Shown here one piece after another: positions 36,702 through 57,321 of a stretch of DNA of 64,000 bases. The notes beneath the pieces were generated by a model that did no database searches, was not told the origin of the DNA, and saw nothing but the letters and a program-made list of their open reading frames with translations. Source of the DNA: a bacterium (lineage in GTDB: Bacteria; Hinthialibacterota; Hinthialibacteria; Hinthialibacterales; Hinthialibacteraceae); the NCBI GenBank assembly GCA_016125385.1, contig WGLV01000041.1:1-64000 (forward strand), written 5' to 3'. The stretch's first letter is position 1. Every line of letters begins with the position of its first letter. Made by a program: the position numbers and the translations under genes.

Positions 36702-37550
36702 ATGAAACCGAACGTTTTGCTTTTCGCGGTCGCCATCGCCGCCCTCTCATCTTTCCAGATCGCGTGGCTGAATCCGATCAAGGATGAAACCATTAAGGCG
36801 AATCAGAAATACCAGGCGGGTCAATATAAAGAAGCCCTGCAGGATTACACGGATCTCGCCGCGCGTCATGAACCGGAAGCGAGCCTGATGCACTTCAACA
36901 TGGGCGACGCCTGGTTCAAGCAGGAAGACTATGAAAAGGCCATCGCCGAGTACAAACAGGCCCTCAATCAAAACGACCCGAAACTCAGCGCCATGTCTCA
37001 CTACAACATCGGCAACTCGTATTTCAACATGGAACAATACGACAAGGCGATTCAGTCGTACATCCAGTCTCTGAAAATCGATCCCGATGACAAGGACGTA
37101 AAATATAACCTCGAAGCCGCGCTGCAAAAATTGCAGCAGCAGAAACAACAGCAACAACAGCAGAACCAGAATCAGAAAAATCAGGACAAACAGGATCAGC
37201 AGCAACAACAGCAACAGGACCAACAACAGCAGGACCAGCAACAGCAGAAACAGGATCAACAGCAGCAGCAACAAGACCAGCAGCAACAGGATCAGCAGCA
37301 ACAGGACCAGCAGCAGCAGGACCAACAGCAGCAGCAACAAGACCAGCAGAAACAGGATCAGCAACAGCAGCAGCAGGATCAAAAAGAAAGTCAGCGGCAA
37401 GACGCCCAACAGGCGCCGAAAAACGATGAACTGACCAAAGAGCAGGCGATGCAGATCCTGAAAAACTTCGAGCAGGACGAAAAAGACACCCGCAAACAGA
37501 TCAAGCGGCAACAACAGCCAACCAACGTCCAGGTGGAGAAAGACTGGTAA
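36702..37550 (+). CDS. batC: BatC-type TPR protein with a long Q/D-rich tract
   Basis: This 282-residue protein has a signal peptide (LLFAVAIAALSSFQIAW), then three TPR units (YQAGQYKEALQDYTDLAAR; AWFKQEDYEKAIAEYKQALN; SYFNMEQYDKAIQSYIQSLKIDP). About 90 residues consisting almost only of Q, D, K and N follow (around 37126-37385). The C-terminal segment KEQAMQILKNFEQDEKDTRKQIKRQ is conserved in BatC. I start at 36702, where AAAGGAG is nine bases upstream and a signal peptide begins at once; an ATG at 36648 is possible. The Q tract is encoded by varied CAG/CAA codons, so the protein, not just the DNA, seems selected. Confidence 0.88.
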   Translation: MKPNVLLFAVAIAALSSFQIAWLNPIKDETIKANQKYQAGQYKEALQDYTDLAARHEPEASLMHFNMGDAWFKQEDYEKAIAEYKQALNQNDPKLSAMSHYNIGNSYFNMEQYDKAIQSYIQSLKIDPDDKDVKYNLEAALQKLQQQKQQQQQQNQNQKNQDKQDQQQQQQQDQQQQDQQQQKQDQQQQQQDQQQQDQQQQDQQQQDQQQQQQDQQKQDQQQQQQDQKESQRQDAQQAPKNDELTKEQAMQILKNFEQDEKDTRKQIKRQQQPTNVQVEKDW

Positions 37551-56029: not shown

Positions 56030-56905
56030 ATGCCACTCATCAGCATGAAACCCATGCTCGCCGCCGCCCGTGAACAGGGGTACGCGGTAGGAGCCTTCAA
56101 TATCGTCGACTATCTCTCCGCCAGAGCCGTCATTCAGGCGGCGGAACGCCTCGACGCGCCGGTCATCATTCAGACCTCGGTCAAGACGGTCAAATTCTGG
56201 GGCCAGGCCGCCATCGTATCCTGGCTCAAACAGCTTGCTCAGGATTCAAAAATCCCTGTGGCGTTGCATCTCGACCACTGCAAGGACGTCGAATTCATCC
56301 AGCAGTGCATCGACGCGGGCTGGACCTCGGTGATGATCGACGCCTCCTCCCTGCCCTATGAAGAAAATCTGGCGGTCAGCGAAGAAGTCGTCCGCCGCGC
56401 ATCCTCCGCGGGCGTCGGTGTGGAGGCGGAACTCGGCGAGATTGGCGGCGTGGAAGAAGACATCGTCGTCGATGAAGCCGACGCTCATCTGGCCGATCCC
56501 GCCAAGGCGATCGCTTTCTGCGAACGCATGCCGCTGGCGGTGTTCGCGCCAGCCATCGGCACCGCGCACGGCGTCTACAAGGGCGAACCACGCATCGCGT
56601 TCGATCGGCTCGAAACCATCTCCCGCGCGGTTTCGACGCCGCTCGCCCTGCATGGCGGCACCGGGCTGACAGACGACGTCTTCAAGCGCTGCATCGCGCT
56701 GGGGTGCGCCAAGGTAAACATCTCAACCCAGATCAAACACGTCTTCATTGACAGCTTCGTGCAATATCATCTGGAGAAAAAAGAATACGAACCTCTCAAA
56801 CCGCTGGGCGCCCAACTGGAAGCCATCGAGCGCGAAATGGCCGAGCATATCGTACGCTTCGGCGGCGAAGGCCGCGCCAGCAAAGACGCGCCCCGCTATC
56901 AGTAA
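56030..56905 (+). CDS. Class II ketose-bisphosphate aldolase
   Basis: This 291-residue zinc aldolase has VALHLDHCKD with D82 and zinc ligand H83, GTAHGVYKG with H180, and ALHGGTG with H208. The family includes fructose-, tagatose- and other ketose-bisphosphate aldolases, so it would cleave the product of the FGGY kinase after a second phosphorylation, or act in glycolysis. AGGGAG is near the ATG. Its last codon and stop lie inside the left copy of the tandem duplication that follows. Confidence 0.93.
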   Translation: MPLISMKPMLAAAREQGYAVGAFNIVDYLSARAVIQAAERLDAPVIIQTSVKTVKFWGQAAIVSWLKQLAQDSKIPVALHLDHCKDVEFIQQCIDAGWTSVMIDASSLPYEENLAVSEEVVRRASSAGVGVEAELGEIGGVEEDIVVDEADAHLADPAKAIAFCERMPLAVFAPAIGTAHGVYKGEPRIAFDRLETISRAVSTPLALHGGTGLTDDVFKRCIALGCAKVNISTQIKHVFIDSFVQYHLEKKEYEPLKPLGAQLEAIEREMAEHIVRFGGEGRASKDAPRYQ

Positions 56906-57120
56906 CACAGCATGGGCAGGCGGGTAAAAAAGAATTTATGCTCCAGCATCAGCATCAGTGTGGGTATGGATGTGGATGTGGATGTGGATGTGGGACCGGC
57001 GCCCTCGCCGGTCTCGCCGGTCTCGCCGGTCTCACCGATGGTTTTCAAACATATTTCTGAAAATAACAACAAAACACAAGGATCGAAACCATGATCGACG
57101 CACTCATCTTCGACTGTGAC
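56899..57120. repeat. Tandem duplicated intergenic element, left copy (222 bp)
   Basis: This copy and the right one at 57121-57321 (201 bp) are nearly identical and directly adjacent. The unit spans the end of the aldolase gene and the first 30 bp of the HAD gene, so the HAD start is duplicated. The left copy has four GGATGT hexamers (56968-56991) and four CTCGCCGGT-type nonamers (57004-57039), the right copy two and three; those 21 bp explain the length difference. A hairpin with stem GACCGGCG/CGCCGGTC lies at 56994-57013. Confidence 0.9.
56912..57094 (+). CDS. Possible small protein with DV and SPV repeats (left copy)
   Basis: A 60-residue frame runs through the left duplicate: the hexamers code for DV repeats and the nonamers for SPV repeats, and its TGA overlaps an ATG (ATGA) that copies the HAD start. 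No clear ribosome-binding site precedes its ATG. It may be only a consequence of the repeats. Confidence 0.3.
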   Translation: MGRRVKKNLCSSISISVGMDVDVDVDVGPAPSPVSPVSPVSPMVFKHISENNNKTQGSKP

Positions 57121-57261
57121 TCAGTAACACAGCATGGGCAGGTGGGTAAAAAAGAATTTATGCTCCAGCATCAGCATCAGTGTGGGTATGGATGTGGATG
57201 TGGGACCGGCGCCCTCGCCGGTCTCACCGGTCTCACCGACGGTTTTCAAACATATTTCTGA
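57091..57261 (+). pseudogene. Chimeric remnant of the HAD gene start
   Basis: Thirty bases copied from the start of the HAD gene (57091-57120) run straight into the right repeat copy, making a 56-residue frame that ends at 57261. It keeps the first ten HAD residues, including both aspartates of the nucleophile motif, then leaves the HAD frame. Confidence 0.6.
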
Positions 57262-57321
57262 AAATAACAACAAAACACAAGGATCGAAACCATGATCGAC
57301 GCACTCATCTTCGACTGTGAC
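57121..57321. repeat. Tandem duplicated intergenic element, right copy (201 bp)
   Basis: This is the copy that carries the functional start of the HAD gene (ATG at 57292). The matching small frame here is 53 residues (ATG 57134) and again ends by overlapping the HAD ATG. Frame is preserved across the length changes in hexamers and nonamers. Confidence 0.9.

Follow-up and report, generated by a model that had tools for sequence, protein, structure and literature searches.

The window, a 64,000-bp stretch of DNA (positions 1 to 64,000 of contig WGLV01000041.1), carries on its forward strand a gene for a class II ketose-bisphosphate aldolase and, downstream of it, a gene for a HAD-IA hydrolase (Table 1). 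The region between these two co-directional sugar-metabolism genes consists largely of a tandem duplication, which a preliminary description had put at about 210 bp and which is composed of one copy of 222 bp and one of 201 bp, adjoining without a gap. As that description had stated, the duplicated unit takes in the spacer together with the opening 30 bp of the HAD gene (HAD start at 57292, end of the unit at 57321); on its other side it opens within the final codons of the aldolase gene, whose TAA stop is at 56903-56905. Alignment of the two copies recovered the announced differences of two hexamers (GATGTG) and one nonamer (CTCGCCGGT), seen as indels of 12 and 9 bp, and added three substitutions. 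The intact HAD gene has its own AAGGA-type ribosome site, recognized by eye in copy 2. No microhomology was found by eye at the duplication junction. The genome of the window (G000) is a draft of 77 contigs and 5.53 Mb, estimated to be 95.8 percent complete, and the genome-wide search for further copies that had been proposed found no other copy of the whole duplicated element in this draft; the palindrome that it contains recurs by itself on contig C71. Elsewhere in the window, at 37180-37378, lies a long CAG/CAA-rich tandem repeat with units of 15-66 bp, which if read would give a Gln/Asp-rich protein in one frame.

Table 1. Features of the aldolase-HAD region, in window coordinates.
Feature	Position	Strand	Remarks
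Class II ketose-bisphosphate aldolase gene, upstream neighbour	56030-56905	+	Pfam PF01116, E 7e-89; TIGR00167 above cut-off; stop codon within the duplicated unit
Tandem unit, copy 1	56899-57120	+	222 bp; copy alignment
60-aa open frame	56912-57094	+	judged not a gene; no Pfam or NCBIfam match
Hexamer array (TGTGGA)n, copy 1	56959-56993	+	GTGG tag in every unit; tandem-repeat scan
REP palindrome 1	56989-57013	+	GTGG tag, GACCGGCG-CCCT-CGCCGGTC
Nonamer array (CTCGCCGGT)n, copy 1	57004-57037	+	repeats of loop and 3' arm; tandem-repeat scan
Truncated HAD-start copy	57091-57261	+	56-aa frame; residues 1-10 as in the HAD protein
Tandem unit, copy 2	57121-57321	+	201 bp; ends 30 bp inside the HAD gene
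53-aa open frame	57134-57295	+	judged not a gene
Hexamer array, copy 2	57181-57203	+	two units fewer; tandem-repeat scan and alignment
REP palindrome 2	57199-57223	+	identical 25-mer
Nonamer array, copy 2	57214-57238	+	one unit fewer; tandem-repeat scan
Intact HAD-IA hydrolase gene, 235 aa	57292-57999	+	PF00702, E 1.4e-26; TIGR01509 above cut-off

The hairpin with an 8-bp perfect stem that had been noticed in each copy is present in both as GACCGGCG-CCCT-CGCCGGTC. It reads TGTGGGACCGGCGCCCTCGCCGGTC, that is, a GTGG tag, an 8-bp stem and a 4-nt loop, and as single-stranded DNA the hairpin of copy 1 folds better than 200 of 200 shuffles (z -3.24). The structural rule given for REP (repetitive extragenic palindrome) elements in the available text of PMC6006769, GTAG or GTGG located 0-2 nt 5' of a hairpin with a stem of 7-20 and a loop of 2-5 nt, describes this palindrome with GTGG at 0 nt. 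The 25-mer TGTGGGACCGGCGCCC(T/C)CGCCGGTC occurs in six perfect copies in the draft genome, two in the window and four at C71:76312-77177, while two further matches at 3 mismatches, of which one is a window copy read in reverse, were set aside. The element shares with REP elements the GT[AG]G tag immediately preceding an 8-bp stem that closes a 4-nt loop, an extragenic position (in the window, downstream of the aldolase stop and upstream of the HAD start for both copies), and the presence of the same palindrome around a gene for a REP-associated tyrosine transposase (RAYT) of the genome, represented by the four copies on C71. Its head resembles the heads TGTGGGAG and GTGGGAG that are printed for Pseudomonas REPs (excerpt of PMC2817692), and its tag, by which alone the two are likened, recalls the GTAG-20 repeats of Opitutus terrae, where the tag is mutated to GTGG in most members (excerpt of PMC3733652). 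It differs from REP elements in number, with six copies in this draft, or six and three of the sister type described below at no more than 1 mismatch, versus tens to hundreds; more than 100 copies per genome are usual for REPs according to the available part of PMC2817692, a typical trait that stands outside the structural rule. Given this low copy number, unlike that of most REPs, we classed the element as a low-copy REP-type palindrome. The inverted palindrome pair of a REPIN or BIME was not found, both window palindromes being on the + strand. Head-to-tail repetition of a palindrome along with its flanks, as in the window, is known from tandem REP/REPIN clusters (in the portions of PMC3733652 and PMC3116915 available); the window unit is distinguished from these by a flank that takes in the 5' end of the next gene, and by a single REP instead of an inverted pair. 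The window element is thus a REP-type palindrome with a tandem duplication, of which the general type, tandem REP clusters with flanking DNA, is already in print.

The gene on contig C71 that is surrounded, within 0.9 kb, by four copies of the 25-mer scores 80.3 bits against NF047646 (REP_Tyr_transpos), the curated cut-off being 80, and 81.3 bits in the genome-wide family search (match at 76609-77013); it also matches Pfam Y1_Tnp. Its protein keeps the HxH motif and the Tyr before NP (by eye) of the RAYT/TnpA-REP family NF047646, from which it departs in being barely above the cut-off. A sister palindrome, GACAGCCG-CCCT-CGGCTGTC (stem ACAGCCG), is found in inverted orientation on both sides of this RAYT gene, one copy being mismatched, and once more on contig C26. 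Two palindrome types are present on each side of the gene (L004:1598-2239). In other genomes of the same phylum (L045, L046, L054), the RAYT genes are flanked by different palindromes, such as GGTGCGCACCGCGCACC and GACAGGCCTCCGTGCCTGTC, which form long direct arrays.

The preliminary description had drawn attention to small frames of 60 and 53 residues, which run through the two copies and stop over the HAD ATG, and had proposed either selection for a small coupled protein or a repeat element family with coding capacity. Both frames exist, and each ends in a TGA inside the ATGA of a HAD start; the stop falls over the ATG because of this TGA, and the frame is kept because the slipping units measure 6 and 9 bp. 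It is highly improbable that the small frame encodes a genuine protein, translationally coupled and with its frame kept by selection. The frame is open in both copies, and closed ATG frames of at least 60 residues occurred in a fraction of 0.006 of first-order Markov shuffles of one copy (0.036 for at least 53), a null that breaks up the stop-free repeats and the sole result in favour of the protein. Against it, unit lengths of 6 and 9 keep any frame, and all three forward frames run stop-free through the repeat arrays. The 60-aa frame has no match in Pfam or NCBIfam, and by eye there is no ribosome site before 56912. Substitutions between the copies are 2 nonsynonymous and 1 synonymous, too few for a firm test and no sign of purifying selection. 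In four relatives of the same family (G001-G004), the adjacent aldolase and HAD genes are separated by a short spacer, or by none, and no palindrome lies there, so that there is no orthologue of the small frame. REP clusters elsewhere can likewise be read as frames of 43-82 aa (PMC3733652, in the part available). On the family search of the 60-aa frame, the spacer comparison with the four relatives and the substitutions between copies, the small-protein reading was rejected. Of the repeat element family with coding capacity, the first half stands, as a REP-type palindrome with a RAYT in the genome, and the coding capacity does not.

The hexamer corresponds to a tag-side repeat (ATGTGG) and the nonamer to the loop and 3' arm; both arrays are therefore built from pieces of the palindrome, which they adjoin. 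Considered as a whole, it is highly likely that a REP arrived, that its hairpin rendered the flanks prone to slippage, and that a tandem duplication including the gene start followed. The REP-type palindrome would have arrived in the aldolase-HAD spacer in this lineage, probably through presumed mobilisation by the RAYT of contig C71. The hairpin and tag would then have made the flanks prone to replication slippage, which may have multiplied the tag side into ATGTGG hexamers and the loop plus 3' arm into CTCGCCGGT nonamers, before a larger tandem duplication of 222 bp took in the palindrome and the opening 30 bp of the HAD gene. The two copies would later have drifted by repeat units and the three substitutions, the HAD gene keeping its intact start and ribosome site in copy 2 and copy 1 being left with the 56-aa frame as a presumptive decoy. 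Such a history looks like ordinary instability of DNA driven by repeats and involves no new small protein. The six 25-mers, four of them around the RAYT gene, the short or missing spacers of the four relatives, and the tag-side arrays and UBA6118 duplications described below count in favour of this course; the low copy number, the 49 loci without duplications, the 3' side with its lack of array enrichment and the genomes in which the palindrome came without a RAYT match count against it.

A quite unlikely alternative is that the duplication was produced by assembly, two strain haplotypes of a single-copy spacer having been joined in tandem. The genome is a draft of many contigs, the copies differ as strain alleles might, and the junction shows no microhomology; however, the join is gapless and inside a contig, and similar duplications surround the same palindrome in UBA6118, although UBA6118 is itself a MAG and may suffer from the same fault. 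Of the 31 loci of UBA6118, 12 have a local duplication of at least 60 bp that holds the palindrome, where 1000 rotations as a null gave a mean of 2.2 and a maximum of 6; none of the 49 loci in other named genomes does, among the loci listed. Since duplications are absent at these 49 loci, the instability is not general to the palindrome family, and no general tendency of such palindromes to cause local duplications is claimed. As a separate observation, UBA6118 (L144, L128, L097, L109), a MAG rich in the element, displays direct arrays of whole palindromes at a regular spacing of 33-58 bp, besides larger duplications.

An effect of the palindrome on the regulation of the HAD gene is possible. 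On the messenger, the palindrome would form an intergenic hairpin, perhaps affecting decay, and it is conceivable, if doubtful, that it has been kept because it regulates the HAD gene through messenger stability, attenuation or spacing. The stability of the hairpin as a single strand and its position between co-directional genes are in line with such a role, and roles of this kind are ascribed to REPs in the available text of PMC3733652; its absence from the four relatives speaks against it, as do the outcome of a terminator scan and the unremarkable fold of the whole unit. That scan detected no terminator-like site on the + strand, and the terminator reading was rejected. The reading of the whole unit as an RNA element was given up as well, the 222-bp unit having a fold z of -1.00, with 34 of 200 shuffles as good.

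Arrays built from half a palindrome are also found at other loci. On C71 (L039:9109-9165) 4.4 repeats of a 13-bp unit, TGTGGGACCGGCA, lead up to an intact palindrome, which is followed by 14- to 15-bp units of the 3' arm, and on C26 (L034:1453-1522) 15-bp units of tag and arm precede the sister palindrome. Among the named genomes, arrays of the tag and 5' arm with units of 13-19 bp lead into intact palindromes at L073, L095, L099, L128 and L136, and at L232 a 17-bp unit of tag and arm occurs twice. When one random core was taken per locus and compared with non-ORF control windows (70 of the 80 listed loci, 10 having been dropped for short flanks), short tandem arrays touched the tag side at 10 of 70 loci versus 69 of 1879 controls (Fisher p 3.7e-4). 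On the 3' side, with loci counted once, there was no enrichment (4 of 70 loci, p 0.33). A count by core gave 20 of 121 on the tag side and 11 of 121 on the 3' side, for 88 of 3041 in the control, with cores that are clustered (121 of 132 cores, 11 dropped for short flanks); the notion of a two-sided enrichment was abandoned, the per-locus count leaving the tag side alone. Long stop-to-stop frames are common by chance in G+C-rich DNA, and therefore nothing is drawn on extragenic position from the 51 of 70 cores that lie inside such frames of at least 150 codons. A probe count of half copies within 24 bp yielded 6 on the tag side and 4 on the arm side of 131 cores, with arrays of whole REPs giving 19 and 17 in the cross controls, and nothing is drawn from this count. 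Half-REP tandem arrays adjoining intact palindromes may be undescribed: the available portions of the REP literature (PMC3733652, PMC8266576, PMC6006769, PMC3116915, PMC2817692) hold no mention of them, which is not proof of absence in print. In a speculative generalization that we think unlikely to hold, REPs of the GTGTGG/CCCT type would amplify by halves in several unrelated genomes, arrays of the tag and 5' arm (13-19 bp, up to about 11 copies) running into an intact palindrome, with the hexamer array of the window as the smallest form.

Exact half duplications were counted in 12 genomes, giving 13 on the tag side (G000 1, G061 8, G068 4) and 5 on the other side (G000 3, G061 1, G068 1), and reversed control patterns had no match in the same genomes. 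As these matches can nest, the polarity is a hint alone. The excess on the tag side, 12 versus 2 when G000 is left out, and the proposal that RAYT drives BIME dynamics (in the part of PMC2817692 available) are what favours an amplification of the tag and arm repeats driven by RAYT cutting at the tag, as opposed to passive slippage at the hairpin. We give this RAYT-driven amplification a low probability: the matches are nested inside arrays, all of them stem from 3 of the 12 genomes, G000 shows the opposite bias with 3 on the 3' side versus 1, and G061 (UBA6118), which has the most arrays, contains only distant matches to the RAYT of G000 (best E 6e-6). Passive slippage at the hairpin explains the arrays and duplications most simply, with a role of the RAYT being possible.

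At no more than 1 mismatch, the 25-mer is found in 1 of 14 genomes of the phylum, that of the window, and is absent from the 13 others; among 386 genomes sampled as relatives it occurs in two, G000 and G184, the latter of which looks like the same genome as the BRC1 record G069 (RAYT match at identical coordinates). A scan of named genomes found the 25-mer in at least 119 stretches, and the 80 loci listed from it belong, among the matches listed, to eleven MAGs labelled Hydrogenedentota, Sumerlaeota/BRC1, Armatimonadetes or just bacterium. A protein matching the G000 RAYT is encoded by 6 of the 12 palindrome-bearing genomes, the closest among these 12 being those of SJ408 (52 percent), SJ204 (52 percent) and an Armatimonadetes MAG (55 percent over part). 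In the other 6, no protein resembling the G000 RAYT was found, and RAYT and palindrome are thus not always together. In a tree of 43 rows, the G000 RAYT groups with those of SJ408, SJ204 and the Armatimonadetes MAG (support 100/99). Each of these four genes has GTGTGG-tagged, CCCT-loop hairpins in its flanks, the identical 25-mer being also present on the 5' side of the Armatimonadetes MAG gene, and RAYTs elsewhere have other palindromes, or none that were found. From a RAYT and a palindrome common to such distant labels we infer horizontal transfer.

With the palindrome recognized, a duplicated gene start with an in-frame repeat, puzzling at first, becomes recognisable as the scar of a mobile palindrome, and this serves as a warning against naming a small protein at the locus. 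The palindrome is identical over 25 bp (with one free base) in MAGs labelled with three phyla, among the matches listed, and RAYTs from two of these labels cluster with that of G000, which makes a compact case of REP/RAYT pairs common to distant bacteria. The half-palindrome arrays pose a testable question, whether slippage or the transposase shapes REP loci. If their growth were polar and RAYT-dependent, they would represent an undescribed mode of REP-locus expansion, one that also generates spacers of variable length and duplications of gene starts.
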